DNA of 63,102 nucleotides, from IMG/VR virus record IMGVR_UViG_3300031952_000016, positions 1 to 63,102 of that record. The stretch is one strand, 5' to 3'. The notes under the pieces are model-generated. The model saw only the letters and a program-made list of their open reading frames with translations. It was not told the DNA's origin and made no database searches. This document shows positions 10,510-54,554 of the stretch, piece by piece. Both the position numbers and the translations under genes were made by a program. Every line of letters begins with the position of its first letter. Positions within the stretch are counted from its first letter, which is position 1. This stretch comes from a virus.

Positions 10510-10788
10510 ATGAGAAACAAACTAGCCGGGAAACACCCATCGTATGACAAGTTAGGTATGTCAGAAGAAAGAAAGAAAAAGAAGTTAGCCTACGATAAGA
10601 AGTATCAGGACAATCCTAAAAGAGTCAAGTATCGTCAGGAGCTTAACAAAGCCAATCGTGATGCCGGAACCTACGGTAATGGAGATGGTAAAGATATGAG
10701 CCATACCAAAGCTGGGACTATGGTAAAAGAGAATATGATGTCCAATCGTGGGCGTAATGGTCAGAACGGGAAGTCAAGTAAGAAGTGA
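10510..10788 (+). CDS. Basic conserved-looking phage protein
   Basis: A 92-residue, strongly basic product. The C-terminal half holds GTYGNGDGKDMSHTKAGTM and MSNRGRNGQNGKS, a glycine- and lysine-rich pattern of a kind I associate with phage proteins near nucleases. The histidine and polar residues could form part of an active site, but I cannot assign a nuclease family. It overlaps the VRR-NUC gene by 4 bases. Confidence 0.55.
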   Translation: MRNKLAGKHPSYDKLGMSEERKKKKLAYDKKYQDNPKRVKYRQELNKANRDAGTYGNGDGKDMSHTKAGTMVKENMMSNRGRNGQNGKSSKK

Positions 10789-31494: not shown

Positions 31495-32934
31495 CTATCC
31501 GAAACGGAATAATACGAAGTTGTTTGCACCTAAAGTACATACACATCTCTCAGACAAGAAGTTAACCTCCATTGCATCCAAGTCGCTTGTGGCAGCACCA
31601 CCGGCAGAACCTGTAATCCAAGTTTTGTAACGTCTATCTTCAGCTTCAGAAGCACGGTAACGAACGTGCAAGAATGGTCTCTTAGCGTTTTTACCCATAA
31701 TTTGGTCATACACTGAAGTAGAACCTGCAGGAACTAAAAGACCTGTGATTGTACCTGTTGCTGTAGCAGCAGTAGTATTCAATCCACCTCTCATAGTTGG
31801 GTCGTTTAGGTATTTCCAATCAGACTTGTAAAAATCATAACCTCTACGGAATCCTGTGAATCCTAAGTTCAAAGCCATATCAGTATCGTTATCGAACAAT
31901 CCATAAGAAGCTGCAGCTGCAGGAGATGCTCCGTTGAAACCGTTCAATGTTGCTAACATATTGTCGATGTCAAAAGACAATCCACGGTTAACAAATATTA
32001 CGTTCTCTTCGATAGCTCCTTGTTTGTCCAAACGAGAAACAATAGAATCCCAATCAGTTAATGAAGTTGGTGTACCACCACCCCATACATTTCCTCTGTT
32101 GTTAACAACATAGAAGATACCTTCTGACCCTGCTGAGCCTGCAACTCCTGCAGAACCTAATGCAGATATTGCTCCCGAACCTACTTCAGCAGGAACAGTT
32201 TCAATCATTGCAGTTTCTAAGTAATCCTCGAAACGCAAACGAGTTTCGTGCTCTGATTTCAAATACCACAAGTATCCTGTAGCACCGTTCTCAGTAGTAA
32301 CCTCAACCCATCCGATTTGAGCCATATCAGACCCATTAACAGCATATTTATCTTTAATGATAATAGGCTTGTTGCTGTAGATTTCATCTTCAGCTTCCAA
32401 AGAACCAACCATTCCATTAGTTCCTTTTTTGAACTCAGAACCGTAAATAAATACAGTACAAGCAGTAGACACAGCAAAAGCTTGACCACCTGCCTCATAG
32501 TAAGCTACTGTAAAAGTAGTTGCTGAAGGAACAGCAGTAACAACTGCTTTGTTGAAAACTCCTGAAGAGTTGTTTTGAATCATAACAGTTTGACCAACTC
32601 TAATAGCGATGTAAGTAACACCTGAATCAGCTACTGTAAAAGTTGCTGTATCAGCAGCAAGAGCTGCAGCTGAAGTACAGTTAGTGTACTTAATGTGAAG
32701 ACGACCTTGTTCTGCCCATTTGATTTGGTCAGAGTTAGAAGGCATCTCAGCGCCTACCATTCTTAAGAATGATGCGATGGTTCTATTACCATATCTTTCA
32801 AACTCTTTTTCGTAAGTATCAGGAAGATACTGATTCAAAAAGTTAAAGTTGGTAATATAGTTTGTTGATAACGCTACTTGCTCCGCTGCCGGTTGTAATG
32901 CAAAAGTAGGGTTGTTTAATAAAGCACTTGCCAT
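31495..32934 (-). CDS. Major capsid protein (crAss-like)
   Basis: The 479-residue product includes FERYGNRTIASFLRMVGAEM and PSNSDQIKWAEQGRLHIKY, the block most conserved in crAss-like major capsid proteins of HK97 fold. An inserted beta domain (about residues 88-165, VADSGVTYIAIRVGQTV) follows, then the spine-helix and P-domain region. It lies downstream of the scaffold gene and ends in TAG. Codon choice is richer in GC third positions than in its neighbours, as expected for a highly expressed gene. Confidence 0.85.
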   Translation of the reverse strand: MASALLNNPTFALQPAAEQVALSTNYITNFNFLNQYLPDTYEKEFERYGNRTIASFLRMVGAEMPSNSDQIKWAEQGRLHIKYTNCTSAAALAADTATFTVADSGVTYIAIRVGQTVMIQNNSSGVFNKAVVTAVPSATTFTVAYYEAGGQAFAVSTACTVFIYGSEFKKGTNGMVGSLEAEDEIYSNKPIIIKDKYAVNGSDMAQIGWVEVTTENGATGYLWYLKSEHETRLRFEDYLETAMIETVPAEVGSGAISALGSAGVAGSAGSEGIFYVVNNRGNVWGGGTPTSLTDWDSIVSRLDKQGAIEENVIFVNRGLSFDIDNMLATLNGFNGASPAAAASYGLFDNDTDMALNLGFTGFRRGYDFYKSDWKYLNDPTMRGGLNTTAATATGTITGLLVPAGSTSVYDQIMGKNAKRPFLHVRYRASEAEDRRYKTWITGSAGGAATSDLDAMEVNFLSERCVCTLGANNFVLFRFG

Positions 32935-32952: not shown

Positions 32953-34059
32953 TTATACTCTTTTTATACTACGGATTTTTAGGCTTTTACCGGAATCAGG
33001 ATTTACCGCTTTTACCTGCATTCCTCCTGTTGTTTTTGTAACTTCAGGTGCTCTATTGGCAGACATTTGAATATTCTTAATGCCTTTCATAGTAACATCT
33101 GTAGCATCTGCTTGCCCTTGTTCGTAAAAGAACCTTGCAAACTTCTCAGGATTCATAGCTACTGCTAATGACCTATGATAACCTGCCGCATCCTTAACTA
33201 AGCCTTGCTCATCTAAAAACTTGTTTATAAAGTTTGCAGGTGTAGATTGTGCTTTTTTAAGTTCATTAGCATCTCCGGGATTGAAAGTGATTCGTTTGTC
33301 GTTAACATTGAACTCAAAACCTTTGAACTCTCCGTTAAACACTTCATCAGACTTTTGGTTAAACCAATTTCTTTTTCTTTCGTTCTCTTCTTCAATAGTC
33401 TTCGCTTGCTTGGTATATTGCTTATAGCTTTCGTAAGTCTCTTTCTCATCATCAGAAACAAATGCCGCACTTGACTCAAGTGGCACTTTGTATTGTTCTT
33501 TTTGATTATTAAAAAACTTTCTTGCCTCAGCAACTGCCTTTTTAGTTGTAATCTTAACTCTCTTAATGTGAGATTCATCATCAATATCTTCGTCATATCG
33601 ATAGTCATCCATTAAAGAATCAATGTCGTCAGCATCAAGTCCTTCTTGAGTTGCTGCCAAATAATTTTTAAGTAAACTCTCAGAGTCCATAGAATCAAAG
33701 TCTTTTTTAAGACTTAAGAAATCCTCAAAACCTCTTCCTGTTTCTTTTTTGTATTTCATATAAGCAGCAACATCTTCAGGCAAAGCCTCAGACTCTACTC
33801 TTTGAGCTGTTAATTCATCTAATGAATTAATCTGCTTATTGTATCTTTTCCCAATATATGAAAGAACTTGCTCTTCGCTTAATTCAGCAGGGACCTCTAT
33901 TTCAGGAGTTTCTACCTCAGGAACCTCTATCTTTGCTACTTCTTGTCCGGGGATTCTTACGTTTTCAAACTGTTGCTCGTGTCTTTCAAGTAACTCTTGT
34001 TCAACTTGAGCAGTTCCCTTTTCTTCTGTACCGTCTAATAATCTAACTTTTAATTCCAT
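32953..34059 (-). CDS. Capsid scaffold protein
   Basis: A 368-residue highly charged, mostly helical protein with an acidic, repetitive N-terminal part (EVPEVETPEIEVPAELSEEQ). The C-terminal third is basic, with QVKAVNPDSGKSLKIRSIKR near the end. This composition, and the position just upstream of the major capsid gene and after the portal, fits a scaffold. No protease gene is seen nearby. Confidence 0.65.
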   Translation of the reverse strand: MELKVRLLDGTEEKGTAQVEQELLERHEQQFENVRIPGQEVAKIEVPEVETPEIEVPAELSEEQVLSYIGKRYNKQINSLDELTAQRVESEALPEDVAAYMKYKKETGRGFEDFLSLKKDFDSMDSESLLKNYLAATQEGLDADDIDSLMDDYRYDEDIDDESHIKRVKITTKKAVAEARKFFNNQKEQYKVPLESSAAFVSDDEKETYESYKQYTKQAKTIEEENERKRNWFNQKSDEVFNGEFKGFEFNVNDKRITFNPGDANELKKAQSTPANFINKFLDEQGLVKDAAGYHRSLAVAMNPEKFARFFYEQGQADATDVTMKGIKNIQMSANRAPEVTKTTGGMQVKAVNPDSGKSLKIRSIKRV

Positions 34060-39050: not shown

Positions 39051-39617
39051 TTATCTATAAAACATTACATATACCATTCTTCCCTCTTTCCACCCTGTGT
39101 TTGGATATTTGCTATGAAAGTAATTAGAAGGATACATAAGAGCACGATTTGGTCTATATCCTACTACAGAATGTAAATCCCAATTATCTAAATTGTTCGC
39201 TTCGTCTGAAAGAAACCTATCAGCTTCTTCATTTGAAACATCTAATGGCATTTCATAACCTACTTCTTTATGCTTCCAAAAAGCGGTTCCGTGAAGCCCT
39301 TCTTTTGTTGACGGAGACAAGTATAACACTAAAGCTCTTTCAGGTCTAATATCGCCTACCTTTGAGTCTGCGTGGATTCTCCAATCAGTATCGAACTCTT
39401 CAGTTGCTACCCTAAAAAACCCTAGTAAACATTCTCTCTTGGTTTTATCTATATCGCTTAGTTTATAGGTAATAAAATCATCAAATTCTTTATTACTATA
39501 TTGTACCCAAAATTTCTTATCTCCAACTTCAACTTCTTGAAATTGATTACTTGCTAAACTATTATAAATATAGTTATAAATATCTTCATCCAAAAAATCA
39601 TCTACAATATTTATCAT
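39051..39617 (-). CDS. 2-oxoglutarate/Fe(II)-dependent oxygenase
   Basis: The 188-residue product has the full double-stranded beta-helix signature: H82 and D84 in WRIHADSK, H168 in NYFHSKYP, and R180 in GWKEGRMVYV as the likely 2-oxoglutarate contact. It resembles prolyl-4-hydroxylase-type phage oxygenases, which hydroxylate a protein or nucleic acid target. It lies directly upstream of the terminase genes in the late operon, which suggests a virion or packaging-linked substrate. The substrate is unknown. Confidence 0.8.
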   Translation of the reverse strand: MINIVDDFLDEDIYNYIYNSLASNQFQEVEVGDKKFWVQYSNKEFDDFITYKLSDIDKTKRECLLGFFRVATEEFDTDWRIHADSKVGDIRPERALVLYLSPSTKEGLHGTAFWKHKEVGYEMPLDVSNEEADRFLSDEANNLDNWDLHSVVGYRPNRALMYPSNYFHSKYPNTGWKEGRMVYVMFYR

Positions 39618-40404: not shown

Positions 40405-40764
40405 CTACACTAGTATATAAATTATTATCCCTACTATTGAAGATATAACCCAACTAGCAACAACATCTTTATCGCTTTCAAATTGGTCAGGTCTGCTCTT
40501 TCCTTTATAACTTGCATACATACCTTGCCCTCTTTCAAATCCCCAATACAAAGCAAGTGGTACAAATAGTAACACAAAATACTGAAACCACAATGCTTCA
40601 TTAAGAAGGAATAACTTGTACTTAAGCGTTAATGAAAAAAATATAATAAATCCAACACTTACAAAAATGTGTTCAATCCAATTGTTTGCTACTATTTTCT
40701 CTTTGTTCTTCATATCTTGAAAATAAGAGATGAATACTTTTTTTATGTAATTTAATGTTTCCAT
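40405..40764 (-). CDS. Late membrane protein
   Basis: I start at METLNYIKK (40764), 1 base after the upstream stop, not at the in-frame ATG inside the upstream gene. The 119-residue product has about three membrane segments (HIFVSVGFIIFFSLTL, FQYFVLLFVPLALYW and a C-terminal VISSIVGIIIYIL). It may be an accessory holin-like or envelope protein, but the main holin lies at 47481. Confidence 0.55.
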   Translation of the reverse strand: METLNYIKKVFISYFQDMKNKEKIVANNWIEHIFVSVGFIIFFSLTLKYKLFLLNEALWFQYFVLLFVPLALYWGFERGQGMYASYKGKSRPDQFESDKDVVASWVISSIVGIIIYILV

Positions 40765-40765
40765 T

Positions 40766-41098
40766 TTAATTAAATTTAATTGCATCTATACAATGCTTCT
40801 CGGTTAATATCCACACAAGAACTTTTCCTGTATTTGTTAAGTTGTTTAATAATATATTCTTTCCCAAAACACTTGATATTGTTTCTCCTTGTAATCCAAA
40901 TGGATAAGATATTTTATTTTTTATTAAATGATTATTCCAAAAAGTTCTAAACTCAACATTTCCCCAAATATCTAGATTTAAAGCAGTGCTTCTGAAATAA
41001 CCTTTCTTATTTTTTACTTCAATAAAATTTATTATAGTCATTACAAAAATAAGAATTAATGCTAGAGTAAATAATAAAAACCCTTTTATTTCTTTCAT
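40766..41098 (-). CDS. Late protein with N-terminal membrane anchor
   Basis: A 110-residue product with one N-terminal hydrophobic helix (FLLFTLALILIFVMTI) and a soluble C-terminal domain. It may be anchored in the inner membrane. No motif recognised. It is adjacent to a second membrane gene. Confidence 0.5.
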   Translation of the reverse strand: MKEIKGFLLFTLALILIFVMTIINFIEVKNKKGYFRSTALNLDIWGNVEFRTFWNNHLIKNKISYPFGLQGETISSVLGKNILLNNLTNTGKVLVWILTEKHCIDAIKFN

Positions 41099-47481: not shown

Positions 47482-47912
47482 TACGTTAATTCATCAATGT
47501 TATTTTTAACTTCTTTTGCTCTAAGAAATACTTTCTTGAGTAGTTTCCAAATATCAATATTAAAACTCTCTTCAATGTTTTCTTTTATAGATACCAACTC
47601 TACAAAAATCAATAGTATAGCACATATTTTTGTGAACATATATGTTATTCCAAAAGCCCTGATTACAAACTCATTTAAAGCATATTTGTCAATCGCAAAA
47701 AGAAATAATATACAAAGTTCGTATAATGCCATTTTTGATATTATGTTCGATAATATTCTACTTCTAATACTGCTTACTCCCTTTAGTTTTATGGTTTTAA
47801 AAATACCTGTTAGAGTATCAAGAAAAATAGCGGCTCCAACCGCTATTAACAACCCATATATGGGTACAAATAATAGTATCAAAGATGATGCTATATAATT
47901 TAAGTATTTCAT
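47481..47912 (-). CDS. Holin
   Basis: A 143-residue protein with three to four membrane segments (YIASSLILLFVPIYGLLIAV, then AIFLDTLTGIF, and a pair near 70-105). It has the DTLTGIFK motif typical of the Bacteroidota/Firmicutes phage holin family 4-like group. Its first base overlaps the previous stop (TAATG), and its stop touches the endolysin start. Confidence 0.75.
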   Translation of the reverse strand: MKYLNYIASSLILLFVPIYGLLIAVGAAIFLDTLTGIFKTIKLKGVSSIRSRILSNIISKMALYELCILFLFAIDKYALNEFVIRAFGITYMFTKICAILLIFVELVSIKENIEESFNIDIWKLLKKVFLRAKEVKNNIDELT

Positions 47913-48046
47913 TATCTTCCCTGACCTTTATACGCTTTCACGTAATTCTTACTTGTTTTTAGAGTGCTCGTTTTTGTTTTTGCAGCTACACCTGACTTAC
48001 TTGAATTAGACTTGTGGGTAGTTTCTTGTTGCTTAACTTTTGCCAT
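47912..48046 (-). CDS. Small basic protein
   Basis: A 44-residue lysine-, serine- and threonine-rich protein (MAKVKQQETTHKSNSSKSGV), overlapping the holin start by one base. It belongs to a run of small basic late proteins. Possible nucleic-acid or capsid-lining role is speculation. Confidence 0.5.
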   Translation of the reverse strand: MAKVKQQETTHKSNSSKSGVAAKTKTSTLKTSKNYVKAYKGQGR

Positions 48047-48047
48047 C

Positions 48048-48533
48048 TTACCAAAGAGCGTTTACTAGAGTAGCAGTTGTGCCTGTTGATTTTAAAGCTA
48101 TAACTTGAACAGGCAAAATTGTGCCCACAGGGACAGCACTAAACGTTATATCATCTCCTCCAATAGTTGTAACAGCTACATTACCTGCACCACCAACATA
48201 TAAAAAAGCACCTGTATTTCCTAAACCTGTTTGCGCAGATTGTTGGTAAATTTTAAATGATTGACCGCCTGTTGTAAAAATATTTGCATTTAAAGTGATT
48301 TCGGTTTCACTATTAACAGATACTACCGTTGCGGCTGTTGATGAAGACGTATTGTAAACAACATCTCCTGTTTTTACATTGTCAAAAATAAAATCGCCCG
48401 TAATTGTGATTAATTTATTAGTTGCGACACTTGTATTTGCTCCGGTATGTATTAAATTAATACTTGGTATTACTGCATTATCAGATTTTATAACTGATAA
48501 CGCTCTTGAGAATGTTGTTTTAAATACAGACAT
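48048..48533 (-). CDS. Virion surface protein, spike-base/decoration-like
   Basis: A 161-residue beta-rich protein. The C-terminal VGTILPVQVIALKSTGTTAT, then LVNALW, resembles phage spike-base proteins with endings of the type TGTTAT-x-ALW. It also shares TGDVVYN-like segments with the insert domain of the capsid protein. A decoration or fibre-base role is likely but not certain. Confidence 0.55.
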   Translation of the reverse strand: MSVFKTTFSRALSVIKSDNAVIPSINLIHTGANTSVATNKLITITGDFIFDNVKTGDVVYNTSSSTAATVVSVNSETEITLNANIFTTGGQSFKIYQQSAQTGLGNTGAFLYVGGAGNVAVTTIGGDDITFSAVPVGTILPVQVIALKSTGTTATLVNALW

Positions 48534-48539
48534 AGTTTC

Positions 48540-48710
48540 TTATTTATATAATGTTTTGTTAATCAATAGATTGGGGTTATTCAAAGCTTTTTTTCTTTCA
48601 CTACATTCACAATCTTTACCTGTTGCTTTAGCTACAGCTTCTACTACAGTTTTTATTCCTGTAGCAGTAGTTATTTTTTCAATTGTATCTCCTAGCCCTT
48701 TTGATTTCAT
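48540..48710 (-). CDS. Small late protein with CEC motif
   Basis: A 56-residue product (MKSKGLGDTIEKITTATGIK) with helical N-terminus and DCECSERKKALNNPNLLI at the end. Small proteins with this plan occur in many Bacteroidota phages near structural genes. Function unknown. Confidence 0.55.
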   Translation of the reverse strand: MKSKGLGDTIEKITTATGIKTVVEAVAKATGKDCECSERKKALNNPNLLINKTLYK

Positions 48711-48732
48711 TTTGTAAAGGTATTAAATTTTT

Positions 48733-49071
48733 TTAAACTTTTGAAACTCTGTTTCCCATACCAACCTTAGTCTTTTCTGCTTTTTTAGAAGCCAATTTAG
48801 ACTTGCTAATTTCAGATATAGTCTTTGGTGTTTTTGAAGAAACTTTTACTTTTGGTCTACAGTATTCATTACTTCCTCCTGCGCCACAAGCCTTGCCTGT
48901 TTTAGTATCGGTCCATTTCTCTTTATCCCATCTCTTTAAAGATGTACCTGCCTCAGTCTTTCTTACAACGCCTGAGCCTTTACGGCATTTAGCAATAGCC
49001 TGAGAGGCTCTTGCAGATGGAAAGATATCATACTGTGCCTTTACTTTTTTATAACAAGCATCTTTTGGCAT
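48733..49071 (-). CDS. DUF5872-like basic protein
   Basis: A 112-residue basic protein. YDIFPSARASQAIAKCRK, then GTSLKRWDKEKW and GKACGAGGSNEYCRP followed by KVSSKTPKT, make up the pattern I recall as DUF5872, found in phages and large algal viruses. Its strong charge suggests a packaged or DNA-contacting protein. Confidence 0.6.
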   Translation of the reverse strand: MPKDACYKKVKAQYDIFPSARASQAIAKCRKGSGVVRKTEAGTSLKRWDKEKWTDTKTGKACGAGGSNEYCRPKVKVSSKTPKTISEISKSKLASKKAEKTKVGMGNRVSKV

Positions 49072-49072
49072 C

Positions 49073-49267
49073 TTATTTCTTTTTAGCAGGGATTACTCCT
49101 TTTGCAATAAGAATGTCTTTCTTGGTTACTTTACCATCGCCACTAGCGTCAGGAAATTTACCTCCTTTAGCCGGAGCTTTTTTAACATTCCCTTTTAGGA
49201 ATTTCATTTTACCGTCTAATGATTTCTTAGACTCGTATTGTTTTGCTTTTTCAATTACTTTTTTCAT
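49073..49267 (-). CDS. Small lysine-rich protein with a calcium-loop-like motif
   Basis: A 64-residue protein ending in DASGDGKVTKKDILIAKG, which matches the DxSGDGKVTxxD loop of dockerin/EF-hand type. The rest is lysine-rich. A single loop may bind calcium or aid dimer contacts. It overlaps its neighbour by one base. Confidence 0.55.
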   Translation of the reverse strand: MKKVIEKAKQYESKKSLDGKMKFLKGNVKKAPAKGGKFPDASGDGKVTKKDILIAKGVIPAKKK

Positions 49268-49557
49268 TAGTATTTTCCTTTACGATTACTTGGATTACTT
49301 GTTGTTGAACCTCCTGCACCTGCCCATAAATTTTTACACGCCCAATATCTTGCAGTTAGCCTGTCTTTTGCTTCAGCGCAATTATGTCTTGCTTTAAAAC
49401 TTTTACGTGCGGCATCTGAATAATTATTGCCATAGCCTTTTGCTCCAAAATGAATAAGTTTTTCTTGTCCATTTGAACAGGCTTTTACCATTTTCTTTTT
49501 ACCCGGTCTGTCTGACGAGACCGGGCTATTACATTTCATTTTAGATTTATCAGCCAT
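49267..49557 (-). CDS. Conserved-looking basic late protein
   Basis: A 96-residue basic protein with LIHFGAKGYGNNYSDAARKS, FKARHNCAEAKDRLTARYWA and CKNLWAG, a pattern that recurs in Bacteroidota phages and some large viruses. It is likely a virion component by operon position. No enzymatic motif. Confidence 0.6.
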   Translation of the reverse strand: MADKSKMKCNSPVSSDRPGKKKMVKACSNGQEKLIHFGAKGYGNNYSDAARKSFKARHNCAEAKDRLTARYWACKNLWAGAGGSTTSNPSNRKGKY

Positions 49558-49560
49558 AAC

Positions 49561-49689
49561 TTATTGTCTAAATGCTCTTGTATTATGACCCGGATACTTG
49601 TCATCTACTACAGTAGGAGTCTCTACTACAGGAGTCTCGTTTACTACTTCTTCTACGGTTTCTACAACCTCAATTTGTTTCTTTGCCAT
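49561..49689 (-). CDS. Very small acidic protein
   Basis: A 42-residue product rich in V, E and T-P steps (VVNETPVVETPTVV) with a basic tip KKQ and RAFRQ. The P/V/E repeats recall the low-complexity belt in the giant internal protein. Function unknown. Confidence 0.45.
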   Translation of the reverse strand: MAKKQIEVVETVEEVVNETPVVETPTVVDDKYPGHNTRAFRQ

Positions 49690-49694
49690 CTTAA

Positions 49695-49862
49695 TTAACA
49701 ATAAGAGTTACTACCTTTCATTCCTTTTCCTTTAGCAGAAGACATTACTTTACTAGTAGCGCCTTTGCTGTTTTGATTGATAGCCAATTTTTTGTTGCTA
49801 CCACTTGTAGCCGGAGCCTTCATACGAGACGAACCCGGTAATTTTGGTGTTGATTTTGCCAT
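49695..49862 (-). CDS. Small basic protein
   Basis: A 55-residue lysine- and serine-rich protein (MAKSTPKLPGSSRMKAPATS) ending NSYC. It is one of the run of basic late proteins. Possible DNA-contact role is inference. Confidence 0.5.
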   Translation of the reverse strand: MAKSTPKLPGSSRMKAPATSGSNKKLAINQNSKGATSKVMSSAKGKGMKGSNSYC

Positions 49863-49876
49863 TGTGTTTATATTTA

Positions 49877-50155
49877 TTATGTTAATCTTGTTCTATCTGA
49901 AAATGATGCCAATCCGTGAAGTCTACCGCCTGCTGTAGAACGACTTTCTACCCTACTTCTCTCTACTCTTTTAACCTCTGCATCTTGACTTATTTTATCT
50001 TTAACAGCCTTTCTCTCTGCAGCTCTTTGTTTGATACCTGCTAACGCATCCTCAATATTACCTACTTTAGGGCTATCCCCCAACGGAGTAGACTCTCTGT
50101 ATTTTGCTGCAGAATCTGCCTGTCTCTCTTCTTTTGTTTTTTTAGTAATTGGCAT
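49877..50155 (-). CDS. Small late protein with DTPLA-like tag (1)
   Basis: A 92-residue charged protein. Residues 22-30 read STPLGDSPK, a variant of the tag shared by four neighbouring genes. The rest is helical and charged (KQRAAERKAVKDKISQ). It may be a virion protein with a docking peptide, by inference. Confidence 0.5.
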   Translation of the reverse strand: MPITKKTKEERQADSAAKYRESTPLGDSPKVGNIEDALAGIKQRAAERKAVKDKISQDAEVKRVERSRVESRSTAGGRLHGLASFSDRTRLT

Positions 50156-50157
50156 AG

Positions 50158-50340
50158 CTATGGTTGTTCAGGTTGAGGTTGAGGTTGAGCAGGAGCAATA
50201 TTTTTCTTAGAAATATTACCTACCTGCTGAATAGCAGCATCTGCTGTTGCTTGGTATTTATTAACAGGCATTGGCTGTTGTCCTGAGTTAACAGGCATTG
50301 GCTCGGGCGTAGCCGCTAATGGAGTATCGGGTCTCATCAT
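50158..50340 (-). CDS. Small late protein with DTPLA-like tag (2)
   Basis: A 60-residue protein whose residues 3-12 read RPDTPLAATPEP-like. A proline- and glutamine-rich tail ends it (PAQPQPQPEQP). Apart from the tag it is unlike its neighbours. Confidence 0.5.
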   Translation of the reverse strand: MMRPDTPLAATPEPMPVNSGQQPMPVNKYQATADAAIQQVGNISKKNIAPAQPQPQPEQP

Positions 50341-50359
50341 AATTATTTTTTATTAAAGT

Positions 50360-50689
50360 TTATTCTGTTGAGTAATAATTTCCTTTTGTACAACTTCCTC
50401 TAGGGTCGTCTTTTGTAAATCCGTTTGCTTGACCACAATAAGGGTCGGCATTGGGTTTCTTTTTATCTTTCTCTTGTTTAGCTCTAACTTCTTCTCTTGT
50501 CTTGCCTTGAGCATTAGCATTTCTATTTAAAATAGAATCTCTAGCTCTAATATTTTTTTGTTTAACTAAATCTTGAGCAGCTCTCTTTTGCATATAAGGA
50601 CTTATCTTTTCTTTAACAGTATCTTTAACTGCAGTAAATCTTGGTTCAGGAGATGTAGCCAAAGGGGTATCTCTATTTAAAATTGCCAT
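50360..50689 (-). CDS. Small late protein with DTPLA-like tag (3)
   Basis: A 109-residue, strongly basic protein with RDTPLATSPEPR at 6-17 and a C-terminal cysteine pair (PYCGQANG, SCTKGN). The helical basic middle could contact nucleic acid. The tag matches genes (1), (2), (4) and (5). Confidence 0.5.
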   Translation of the reverse strand: MAILNRDTPLATSPEPRFTAVKDTVKEKISPYMQKRAAQDLVKQKNIRARDSILNRNANAQGKTREEVRAKQEKDKKKPNADPYCGQANGFTKDDPRGSCTKGNYYSTE

Positions 50690-50691
50690 AA

Positions 50692-50946
50692 TTATTTTTT
50701 ATTTTTAGGTAGTAATTTTCTTTCTTTAGCTTCCTGATAACCTCTAACCGATGAAGCTGTTGGGAAGAATTTATGTTTTCCTGTTGTACCTCTTTCAAAA
50801 CCAACTCTGTACTCAGCACTATCTTGTGCTGTTGCTGTGTATGGCTTGTCTTTAAAAAACTCCCTTTTTGATGTTGGAATGTTTCTGTAATCAGGAGTTG
50901 GGCTATCTGCCAACGGAGTATCCGGTCTTTTTTTAGGTTGTAGCAT
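50692..50946 (-). CDS. Small late protein with DTPLA-like tag (4)
   Basis: An 84-residue protein with RPDTPLADSPTPDY at 7-20 and a later GFERGTTGKHKFFP segment. Shares only the tag with its neighbours. Confidence 0.5.
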   Translation of the reverse strand: MLQPKKRPDTPLADSPTPDYRNIPTSKREFFKDKPYTATAQDSAEYRVGFERGTTGKHKFFPTASSVRGYQEAKERKLLPKNKK

Positions 50947-50951
50947 AATTA

Positions 50952-51170
50952 TTAGTCTAATAAGTTTGTTAAAAATCCTTTTTTTGTTAAATCTTCAGGG
51001 TTTTTACTAGCTCTGATTTCAGCTTTAGCAATTTCATCATTAGTGAAAAGCAAACATCTTTCGTTTTTCCCATTTGAATCCTCTACTTGGATAGCTATAT
51101 AGTTATTAGCAGAACCAAATTTTCTTTCTGTATTGTCTACAAAAATTAATCTTCCTTTAACTACTTTCAT
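50952..51170 (-). CDS. Small beta-rich protein, unknown
   Basis: A 72-residue product (MKVVKGRLIFVDNTERKFGS, then NYIAIQVEDSNGK, CLLFTNDEI). The beta pattern hints at a small barrel. It lacks the tag of its neighbours. Role unknown. Confidence 0.55.
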   Translation of the reverse strand: MKVVKGRLIFVDNTERKFGSANNYIAIQVEDSNGKNERCLLFTNDEIAKAEIRASKNPEDLTKKGFLTNLLD

Positions 51171-51171
51171 A

Positions 51172-51501
51172 TTATTTATTTTTTAAATATTTGAAATCAT
51201 TAGGATTAGCTTTTTCATCTTTCTTAGAAACAACAACTCCTTCTGCGTATTTCTTTACAGCAGAATTAGCTTTAGCTTTCTTTTCTTGCGCTTTTAGAAC
51301 TCCGGGGTCTGTTTTTGAAGAACCTGTATGAATATTTTTTAAATCCATCATTGTTCTTGGCTCAGGACTAGGAGCTAATGGTATGTCTCTACCTGAATTA
51401 GGACCTTTAAAAATAGGTCTTGAATTAATACCTCCTCCTGAAGTGGCATCTATAATATTTTGCTCTTGCTTACTTAAACTCTTTTTAGGCTGCTTTGGCA
51501 T
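51172..51501 (-). CDS. First late gene; small protein with DTPLA-like tag (5)
   Basis: A 109-residue lysine-rich protein in which RDIPLAPSPEPR (about 39-50) carries the shared tag at an internal position. It is the first gene after the divergent promoter region, so it should be produced early in the late phase. Confidence 0.5.
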   Translation of the reverse strand: MPKQPKKSLSKQEQNIIDATSGGGINSRPIFKGPNSGRDIPLAPSPEPRTMMDLKNIHTGSSKTDPGVLKAQEKKAKANSAVKKYAEGVVVSKKDEKANPNDFKYLKNK

Positions 51502-51553: not shown

Positions 51554-51994
51554 ATGAAATCAGATAGAGATGACTACCTAAAATATTACAGGGTAATACG
51601 ACAGTTTATAAAAATTAAATACGAGATAACTCAGGCTGACTTAGATATGCTTTTGTTCTTGTATTCAGAGAAGTACTTCGGAAGGGATAAGTTTGATGAA
51701 TATACCAAACTGCTAGGATGGGATGTAGTGCGCTTTTTTAGACTCCAACAAGAAGGTTGGATTGTCAAATTTAGAAATCGAGTTGGTAAGAGAAAAGCTT
51801 TGTACAAACTTACCATAAAATCTGAACGTATGATTCAGTCGATATATAGAAAACTAAGTGGGGAAGAAATCCCCACTAGTTTATCCCAAAATAAAATGTT
51901 TTTAAAAAATGCATCATACCTAGATAAAGCGTATCGTGATATGATTATTCAGATGAATGAAGTTATAAGACAACAACGACATCTCTCTCAGTAA
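51554..51994 (+). CDS. Putative winged-helix regulator
   Basis: A 146-residue basic protein that looks like a winged-helix domain: TQADLDMLLFLYSEKYFGRD, LLGWDVVRFFRLQQEGWIVK and a turn FRNRVGKRKALYKLT. It is transcribed away from the late operon across overlapping promoters and converges with the groES gene by 32 bases. A switch-like control role is likely from context, but DNA binding is not shown. Confidence 0.55.
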   Translation: MKSDRDDYLKYYRVIRQFIKIKYEITQADLDMLLFLYSEKYFGRDKFDEYTKLLGWDVVRFFRLQQEGWIVKFRNRVGKRKALYKLTIKSERMIQSIYRKLSGEEIPTSLSQNKMFLKNASYLDKAYRDMIIQMNEVIRQQRHLSQ

Positions 51995-52226
51995 TAATCG
52001 TGTACTGCTTTTCATCAATTAGCATTGTAAATCCGTGTGCCTTGTCATAGTAGATGTCATCATCTTTCTTTATGTTAGGCACATCTGTTCCTGCTTCAAT
52101 AACTAAACCACGTTTGTATCGCATTTGGTTTACATCTTCTCCCGATAGAATCAATCCTGACTCTGTCTTCAACTCTTCATCAACGGTCTTGATGACTATG
52201 TATTTTCCTATGGGCTTTAATGACAT
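51963..52226 (-). CDS. groES: GroES-like co-chaperonin
   Basis: The 87-residue product has the GroES beta-barrel plan: IGKYIVIKTVDEELKTESGL with the mobile loop (residues 19-33), RGLVIEAGTDVPNIKKDDDI and a final EKQYTIITERDVVVVL. It caps the phage GroEL made upstream on the same strand. A homing endonuclease gene lies between them and overlaps the start of this gene by 10 bases. Confidence 0.8.
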   Translation of the reverse strand: MSLKPIGKYIVIKTVDEELKTESGLILSGEDVNQMRYKRGLVIEAGTDVPNIKKDDDIYYDKAHGFTMLIDEKQYTIITERDVVVVL

Positions 52227-52897
52227 AATTTTTTTATTTTTAATTGTTTATTTAATATTTTACTGTTTACTTTTTTAGACCTTCCGTATAGGTTATTTGA
52301 TATTGCTGTCTCTAAACATCCTAATTTTTTTGCTGCTTCTCTTACAGAAGAAAAATTTTCAATAAATTCAGAAGTATAATAGTCATAACAAGAAATAGGA
52401 ACGGATGTTATTATTTTTGACTTATTTGACAATCTCATTTTAGCTTTAACTTGCTCAGGTATCTTTGTTCCTGTTCTTGCTTTGGCTATATTTTCTCTAT
52501 GCTCTTTAGATTTTATCTTTCCTTTATGAGATAAAGATATTTTATTTTTCCATTCTTCAGTTCTTATAACAGATTTTAAAGATTCTATTTTCTTTTTTAA
52601 AATGCTAAAAGAAACTGCTTCGACAGTAATTCCTCCTTTTGTTTGATTAATAAGTTGGCCATTTTTTAAATCTATTCTTCCGTATTTAGTAATAAGTTCT
52701 ATCTCTAACTCAAATGCTTGCTCTTGAGTTAATCCATCTTTATATATTTCAATTATATAACCATATTTACTTACTACTCTATTCCACCATTCAGGTCTTT
52801 GCTTACAATAGGCTCTTTTTAAATCCCCCATACCTACATAGAAAACAGAATTATCTGTTTTCTTTTTATGTAGATATACAACTTTGTTATTTTTCAT
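52217..52897 (-). CDS. GIY-YIG homing endonuclease with NUMOD modules
   Basis: The 226-residue product begins with a GIY-YIG-like nuclease domain (VVYLH at 6-10, FYVG at 19-22, R28 in the active site region, E63-E65). A NUMOD3-like segment follows (KNKISLSHKGKIKSKEHREN), then a NUMOD1-like helix-turn-helix near residues 165-210 (FSSVREAAKKLGCLETAISN). Free-standing enzymes of this kind cut near their own insertion site to spread. It interrupts the groEL-groES pair. Confidence 0.8.
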   Translation of the reverse strand: MKNNKVVYLHKKKTDNSVFYVGMGDLKRAYCKQRPEWWNRVVSKYGYIIEIYKDGLTQEQAFELEIELITKYGRIDLKNGQLINQTKGGITVEAVSFSILKKKIESLKSVIRTEEWKNKISLSHKGKIKSKEHRENIAKARTGTKIPEQVKAKMRLSNKSKIITSVPISCYDYYTSEFIENFSSVREAAKKLGCLETAISNNLYGRSKKVNSKILNKQLKIKKLCH

Positions 52898-52901
52898 TTA
52901 A

Positions 52902-52909
52902 CAAAAATA
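52902..52909 (-). promoter_or_regulatory. Candidate -7 element TATTTTTG before the homing endonuclease
   Basis: Minus-strand TATTTTTG matches TAnnTTTG 5 bases upstream of the endonuclease ATG, so a nearly leaderless message is implied. Confidence 0.35.
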
Positions 52910-52946
52910 GTAATTTTATTTGTATTTCCCGATTGGTTTCATATCC

Positions 52947-54554
52947 TTACTCGTTTGATTGTTCGTAGCTTCTCGCCATTGTGATTATCGCATCTGTGCT
53001 TAGGATTGTTACCGCTACACTCACTGCGTTTTGCAATGCTGAACGGGTTACTTTCAACGGGTCTATTACTCCCATTTTTACCAAGTCTCCAAACTCTCTT
53101 GTTTTTAGATTGTACCCGTGACCCTGAGCTACACCATCTGAATAGATGTCTGATGCTCTTAGTCCTGCGTTAGCAAGTATCTGTAAGAACGGAGCCATAA
53201 GTGCTACGCTTAAAATATTTATTGCCGCATTGTACTCCTCACTCTTGTTATCGTCTAAATGTAACGCTGCACTCTCCTCAAGTAATGCTTTCCCTGCTCC
53301 GGGCACGATACCTTCCTCTAGTGCTGACCTTACCGCACATACCGCATCATCAACTCTATCAAATAACTCTTTCTGCTCTAGGTCTGTCTGACCTCCTACG
53401 AATATCACTCCGATACCTCCTGTAAGGGAAGCGATACGCTCTAAGATAAAGTCTTTCTCGTGTTTCTTAGTTGCGTTCTTATGCGCATCCCACAACTGAG
53501 ACACTCTTTCGTCAATTGCTTTTTGGTCTAACCTCAAGTCTGACTTGATGATAACAGTTTTGTCCTTGCTCACAATTATCTTAGCTGCGTGCCCTAGGTC
53601 TCCAAAGTTGATGATACTCAAATCATCTCCCGTTTTCTCGCTGAAGTAAGTCGCTCCAACGCTAATGGCAATGTCATACATCAACTCGTGTTGCTTGTAC
53701 CCAAAACTAGGTGGTGCAACTGCACATACCTTGATGTTCCCCTTTACAACATTTGCCGCCAAACTATTGATTAGGTTCTGACCACAAGGAGATATTATCA
53801 ATAACTTTTTACCCTCACTAACAATTGGCTTAAGCACGTTCTCAATCTGAAGGATATTAGTAATCTCCATATCAGCAACCAACACCATAACATCCTCAAA
53901 TATGCACTCATCTTTTTTCTGCTCGTTTATAAACATCGGACTCAAATACCCTCTGTCAAATTTCAACCCTAAAGTGGTCTCCGCATACGTCTCGTCAGTC
54001 TGACTTTTCTCCACCGTTACAATACCGGTCTTACCAACATCTTTGTACACCTCAGAGATTATCTTCCCTATCTCTCTATCGTTGTTTGCAGATATGCTCG
54101 CTACATCCACCAACATAGAGCTAGTAACTCTCTTGCTCTTTTTGCGCAACCTATCCACCACCTTGTCGCTTATCTCCACCATACTCCTTAAGACCTCAGT
54201 CCTGTTTAGATTTGGCGTAATATGCTCAAGTCCTCCCAATACCAACCCCTCTGTAAGCACAATAGCCGTAGTGGTCCCATCTCCTGCGGCAGTAGCGGTA
54301 CGCTCAGCAGCCTCCTTCATCATCTTAACCGCAAGGTTCTCCGAAGGGTCTAACAAGTCAATAGCCTTAGCCACTGTTACACCATCTTTAGTAACCGTGA
54401 TGCCGTGAGTGTGTGTAGGGCTCTCTATCAAGACCGGATTACCTCCCGGACCTAACGTAGCTTTTACAGCTTTTGACATCTTTACCACTCCATTTACTAA
54501 TTTTTTCCTTCCTGTGTCCCCAAAACACAAATCTTTAGGCGAATACTCTAGCAT
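52947..54554 (-). CDS. groEL: GroEL-like chaperonin
   Basis: The 535-residue product is a full-length chaperonin: VKATLGPGGNPVLIE, AGDGTTTA (about 91-98, ATP site), the apical region with TNILQIENVLKPI, and the C-terminal ATP-site block AVRSALEEGIVPGAGKALLE. It ends ARSYEQSNE, without the GGM tail of host GroEL. GC-richer codons than the flanks suggest a separate history. It probably folds the capsid or other large virion proteins with the phage GroES. Confidence 0.9.
   Translation of the reverse strand: MLEYSPKDLCFGDTGRKKLVNGVVKMSKAVKATLGPGGNPVLIESPTHTHGITVTKDGVTVAKAIDLLDPSENLAVKMMKEAAERTATAAGDGTTTAIVLTEGLVLGGLEHITPNLNRTEVLRSMVEISDKVVDRLRKKSKRVTSSMLVDVASISANNDREIGKIISEVYKDVGKTGIVTVEKSQTDETYAETTLGLKFDRGYLSPMFINEQKKDECIFEDVMVLVADMEITNILQIENVLKPIVSEGKKLLIISPCGQNLINSLAANVVKGNIKVCAVAPPSFGYKQHELMYDIAISVGATYFSEKTGDDLSIINFGDLGHAAKIIVSKDKTVIIKSDLRLDQKAIDERVSQLWDAHKNATKKHEKDFILERIASLTGGIGVIFVGGQTDLEQKELFDRVDDAVCAVRSALEEGIVPGAGKALLEESAALHLDDNKSEEYNAAINILSVALMAPFLQILANAGLRASDIYSDGVAQGHGYNLKTREFGDLVKMGVIDPLKVTRSALQNAVSVAVTILSTDAIITMARSYEQSNE

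Follow-up and report, generated by a model that had tools for sequence, protein, structure and literature searches.

Five small late proteins encoded in the 63,102-base stretch of viral DNA analysed here (the window) carry a common twelve-residue peptide tag with the consensus [RK]-P-D-T-P-L-A-x-[TS]-P-[ED]-P, which recurs in related phage sequences on many proteins with unrelated bodies. The tag is portable: the same peptide is found on either end of unrelated proteins, which suggests that one partner recognises it whichever terminus carries it. We give about an even chance to the reading that it is a sorting motif that docks small basic late proteins at one shared site, most likely the interior of the procapsid. 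The phages that bear it are uncultured Bacteroidota viruses of one family.

The preliminary description had placed five such peptides in genes at 49877, 50158, 50360, 50692 and 51172. All are present there, in five minus-strand open reading frames between 49877 and 51501:

49877..50155, minus strand: tagged small basic protein of 92 residues, family 2 (ORF; relatives carry DTPLA or DTPLG and then [TS]PD)
50066..50095, minus strand: eroded tag ESTPLGDSPK, residues 21–30 of the 49877 protein (sequence)
50158..50340, minus strand: tagged small protein of 60 residues, family 0 (ORF, clustering)
50299..50334, minus strand: tag RPDTPLAATPEP, residues 3–14 of the 50158 protein (sequence)
50360..50689, minus strand: tagged small basic protein of 109 residues, family 1 (ORF, clustering)
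50639..50674, minus strand: tag RDTPLATSPEPR, residues 6–17 of the 50360 protein (sequence)
50692..50946, minus strand: tagged small basic protein of 84 residues, family 3 (ORF, clustering)
50893..50928, minus strand: tag RPDTPLADSPTP, residues 7–18 of the 50692 protein (sequence)
50952..51170, minus strand: untagged protein of 72 residues inside the tagged run (ORF)
51172..51501, minus strand: tagged small basic protein of 109 residues (ORF, pairwise matches to L036 and L023)
51355..51390, minus strand: tag RDIPLAPSPEPR, residues 38–49 of the 51172 protein (sequence)

Three of the five copies start near the N-terminus, at residue 5–9, and the others start at residues 22 and 39. The eroded STPLGDSPK copy in the 49877 protein corresponds to DTPLAETPDP in its L055 relative and to DTPLGESPDP in its L058 relative. 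The five bodies were claimed to be unrelated, and none has a significant match to the families of the others. The same description allowed that a known domain might explain the motif; searched against Pfam and PHROG, the five window proteins gave no significant family.

A search for the motif across phage sequences, which the preliminary description had called for, was carried out with a DNA back-translation of DTPLAxxPEP. It matched 89 stretches in viral contigs, and a control pattern one base shorter (6 N) matched five, all spurious; a few of the 89 match by chance within larger proteins with no relation to the tagged ones (e.g. in L039, L040 and L048) and were excluded. The fetched loci together contain 136 distinct tagged proteins, on about 60 contigs. 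Clustered with the tag masked, they form about 15 clusters, of which cluster 1 probably strings several families together and family 0, the commonest, has 40 distinct members. Along the consensus, conservation is 92% for R, 80% for P, 99% for D and 95% for T, then, past P and L, 95% for A and, past x and T/S, 99% for P, 78% for E/D and 77% for the last P, values that are partly conditioned on the search pattern. In the 15,218 small ORFs that the fetched loci contain, DTPLA occurs 135 times against 0.64 expected from composition, and the other orderings of its five letters occur 0.66 times on average; the loci were partly selected via the tag, and the additional copies on each contig were not so selected. 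No shared 6-mer comparable to the tag was found in untagged relatives. A text search of the literature found no description of the DTPLA motif among the papers listed, in line with the earlier statement that no description was known.

DTPLA has 66 different spellings in DNA, and the tag is therefore a protein-level motif and not a DNA repeat. Copies within one locus differ mostly at 2–4 nucleotides, all synonymous, a pattern that speaks against a repeat or recombination joint in the DNA and against a signal in the RNA. Remoter relatives carry degenerate versions, RDYPLSTTP (G026 49594–49830), RDFPLAPTSAP (G026 48181–48543) and KDLPLGSTPR (L137 3250–3507), whose sequences suggest a broader motif family. 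There is also a second N-terminal motif, approximately [DST][TI]?P[NDK]LP[AG]SS[RK], which each genome has on one small basic protein or on two neighbouring ones; it is seen at 49695–49862 in the window and also in G022, G033 and G037.

The tag had been described as N-terminal in most cases. This is correct for most copies, which begin within about ten residues of the N-terminus, and does not hold for other families, in which the tag is C-terminal: 15 proteins end 5–10 residues past it, among them the products of two adjacent genes in L045 (GGRPDTPLATTPEPKKIK and YARPDTPLAETPEPKKID). Both placements occur in family 3, that of the 50692 protein, where the tag is N-terminal in 17 members and C-terminal in two (L018 and L088), and members with opposite placements match one another with pairwise E values of 2e-16 and 2e-15. 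The tag also travels as part of a larger module. Residues 6–49 of the 51172 protein, tag included, match a protein of L036 (61%), the part of which downstream of the tagged module matches the 50158 protein, and the body of the 51172 protein matches a short L023 protein with the tag near its N-terminus.

Tags are lost as well. The body of the 50360 protein is 73% identical to an L010 body that has no tag, and family 2 (49877) includes 17 relatives with no recognisable tag, some of which carry an eroded one. In G030, the phage of L010, the capsid protein is 45% and the scaffold-like protein 35% identical to those of the window; an untagged body in so diverged a setting is what one would expect of a tag that fits no capsid but its own. 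Window segments 40405–41098 and 50360–50689 are 73–89% identical to G030 genes and the G030 terminase is about 41–44% identical; by this comparison the two segments were exchanged recently, and in G030 the 50360 body so exchanged is untagged. The spread over about 15 unrelated families, the placement at either terminus, the module swapping, the tag loss and the absence of a known domain give good support to the earlier proposal of a short signal on diverse cargo.

The tagged proteins have a median length of 93.5 residues and a median net charge of +11, and 96% of them are net positive, as was to be expected from the earlier account of mostly basic bodies. In the genomes scanned, the tag is confined to small proteins and is found on no structural, portal, tail or chaperonin protein. 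In the model of the 50692 protein (pLDDT 76), an unstructured tag precedes a small fold of two short strands and two helices. The body of this protein and its relatives in the alignment display a GF..A..GK...FP......GY.EA pattern that recalls ribosome modulation factor (RMF). The candidate Foldseek match of the model is 9iot_y (54 residues; TM 0.60 by target length, E 2.3), chain y of a hibernating ribosome entry that contains RMF. The body has no match to the Pfam RMF model, and hhalign against E. coli RMF gives a probability of 2.5%. The resemblance lies in motif spacing and modelled fold, is not supported by profiles, and is treated here as a lead only.

Wherever a tagged contig includes a terminase gene, it falls in a single clade of Bacteroidota podoviruses, with terminases 71–90% identical to that of the window; several tagged contigs are fragments with no terminase, so this restriction covers the terminase-bearing contigs. 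The window terminase and portal are 75–76% identical to those of the uncultured podovirus ctfjg026 and about 32–49% identical to those of cultured relatives (Maribacter phage Panino, Flavobacterium elemo phages, Cellulophaga phages and Tenacibaculum phage Gundel). Among the complete or long genomes compared, the number of tags peaks (2–5) in the subclade to which the window belongs. G037, which branches just outside this subclade, has none despite a capsid protein that is 91% identical, and on the terminase tree the tag must have been gained or lost three times or more. The 84,980 species genomes of bacteria and archaea contain no match to a stricter, exact tag pattern. In tblastn searches with the 50360, 50692 and 50158 proteins, named phages yielded no credible relatives, and no named phage with the tag was found. 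Untagged phages of the clade retain similar clusters of small basic proteins. Should these be packaged, the tag would provide an additional way of loading and not the sole one.

The tagged genes are located on the late strand between the tail and M15-peptidase genes and GroES/GroEL, among other small, mostly basic proteins. The parts of the window that bear on their function are:

31495..32934, minus strand: probable major capsid protein (same gene position as the Calle_1 protein labelled major capsid protein)
32953..34059, minus strand: acidic helical protein between the portal and capsid genes, likely scaffold (charge, position, model)
47912..49862, minus strand: untagged members of the late cluster, mostly small and basic (ORFs, Pfam/PHROG)
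48733–49071, minus strand: DUF5872-like small basic protein (Pfam match)
49267–49557, minus strand: PHROG 7595/220-like small basic protein (PHROG match)
49695–49862, minus strand: untagged late-cluster member (ORF)
51963–52226, minus strand: phage GroES (ORF; part of 51963..54554)
52947–54554, minus strand: phage GroEL (ORF; part of 51963..54554)

The 32953–34059 protein has a net charge of −17 and a mostly helical model with a flexible N-terminal segment and a C-terminal tail, and is likely the scaffold; a Foldseek search with this low-confidence model gave no meaningful match. It would be the first candidate for the tag receptor. The capsid protein, 31495–32934, which has no significant match among PDB sequences, would be another. 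The structural proteins contain 0–4 columns each that separate tagged from untagged phages, and this comparison yields no clear receptor candidate. Only two widespread genes are found solely with the tag, the small basic 10510–10788 and the DUF6445-like 39051–39617, neither of them universal. The latter is present in six of 13 other tagged genomes and in none of six untagged ones; it was rejected as the tag partner since G003, a genome with five tags, lacks it. In the comparable region of the relative phi38:1, two proteins of charge +24 are annotated as structural, a label that is inherited annotation, and small proteins in the comparable region of Calle_1 are labelled structural too.

Several neighbours of the tagged genes merit description in their own right. 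The 49267–49557 protein matches PHROG 7595 and a segment of the head/DNA-pilot profile PHROG 220. Its relatives are spread over phages of Flavobacterium, Aeromonas, Roseobacter, Pelagibacter and others, and given this spread the type may be a widespread virion-associated module. The adjacent tiny basic late protein (49073–49267, minus strand) contains a dockerin/EF-hand-like DASGDGKVTKKDI motif with a weak Pfam match. Between GroES and GroEL there is an inserted gene (52217–52897) that, by eye, looks like a GIY-YIG homing endonuclease; a similar gene is present in just one other compared genome.

The late operon, the small basic proteins, the scaffold-like protein, the phi38:1 annotation and the precedent of phage T4 make the capsid a plausible destination. 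Its precursor's interior is the likeliest site because the cargo is late, basic and fast-changing and because of the same precedent. The route that we infer, with its capsid destination, receptor, packaging and ejection, would be as follows. The peptide would mark small basic late proteins for one common docking site, most likely inside the assembling procapsid, on either the scaffold-like protein or the capsid protein. Bound at this site, tagged proteins would become trapped as the shell closes and would then travel with the DNA or be ejected along with it. Each phage could exchange its cargo by adding the tag to either end of a new gene. That a tailed-phage clade possesses such a terminus-independent cargo code, for capsid loading and delivery with the DNA of a fast-evolving injected set, is a tentative proposal to which we assign somewhat less than an even chance.

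The tag could instead dock its bearers to a hub in the infected cell, such as a protein of the host or a phage factor for replication or lysis; effectors would then share a target and would not need to be in the virion. Any hub would fit a short linear motif shared by many bodies, and the possible RMF resemblance of one tagged family is a weak lead in this direction. The late-operon position and the small, basic, cargo-like character of the proteins make such a hub unlikely, as does the restriction to one phage clade, though a single host group could produce the same pattern. A site of modification or cleavage for a phage or host enzyme, for instance a removable propeptide, would explain the two [ST]P sites, the several prolines and the conserved T-P and [TS]-P-[ED]-P. 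It would have a parallel in the T4 targeting peptides, which are removed by cleavage (PMC9026906), and the distribution of the DUF6445 gene is in its favour. Against this, the five-tag genome G003 has no DUF6445 gene, tags are also found at the extreme C-terminus, and the late virion-type proteins scanned contain no protease family besides the M15 lysis peptidase; such a site is quite improbable. Recruitment of clients to the phage's own GroEL/GroES is suggested by the position of these genes next to the tagged cluster in the window and by a methylated GroEL peptide reported from free phi38:1 virion samples (PMC13288928). However, the untagged G037, G035, G038, G040 and ctfjg026 also have GroEL and GroES, and such short bodies should need little help in folding, which leaves chaperonin recruitment very improbable.

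Two further explanations are already contradicted by the data. Many tagged genes lie next to one another and distant paralogy could link some families, so the peptide might simply be the still recognisable N-terminus of diverged paralogues, with no signal function. C-terminal tags, the two placements within one family, the single tagged N-terminal module on different bodies and the 66 DNA spellings leave hardly any room for common descent alone. Phage gene boundaries can bear conserved recombination joints, and the conserved sequence might act in DNA or RNA as such a joint or as a translation signal. Since codons vary freely at synonymous positions and copies are found at both the 5' and the 3' ends of genes, we regard an action in DNA or RNA as the least probable of all.

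If sorting into the procapsid is confirmed, the tag would be a sequence handle for predicting packaged and injected small phage proteins, a class beyond the reach of homology; the T4 capsid-targeting principle would extend to podoviruses of Bacteroidota, and a short peptide would become available for loading chosen proteins into capsids. Even with another destination, one peptide on so many families suggests a common partner, which should therefore be findable.

Three known systems invite comparison. The crassvirus phicrAss001 carries the cargo proteins gp45–gp50 inside its virions (PMC10172136), and the tagged proteins, which would likewise be located in the virion, also belong to podoviruses of Bacteroidota. 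The phicrAss001 cargo is large (60–277 kDa), and the available text of PMC10172136 does not mention a shared tag on it, whereas the tagged proteins are small. The window terminase has a distant match to Azobacteroides phage ProJPt-Bp1, apparently the termite-gut BP1 that this text lists among the crassviruses.

A second likeness is to the small basic internal proteins of T4, present in about 300 copies each, in which the ten-residue signal of IPIII is carried on divergent mature parts and binds the scaffold core (PMC9026906). The T4 CTS (IPI–IPIII) and the tag are both signals of about ten residues, shared at a terminus by small basic late proteins with divergent bodies; in both systems the cargo repertoire varies among relatives, and a scaffold-like core protein is encoded in the window too (PMC9026906). 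The tag differs from the CTS in its unrelated, proline-rich sequence and in its position, which is often C-terminal, and no maturation protease or cleavage motif was detected among the late proteins scanned; its bearers would be packaged in the same manner. Encapsulin cargo-loading peptides are short, are located at the N- or C-terminus of unrelated cargo, as is the tag, and are recognised by a shell of HK97 fold (PMC7355545). Their cargo, however, lies in a compartment of the cell and includes enzymes and ferritin-like proteins (PMC7355545), whereas the tag has another sequence and is found in a tailed-phage late operon, in a region with portal, terminase and tail genes in place of an encapsulin shell gene adjoining the cargo genes. 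Because the tag is not confined to the N-terminus and lacks the encapsulin context, it is classed with neither the T4 CTS nor the encapsulin peptides, but it would work like either of them.
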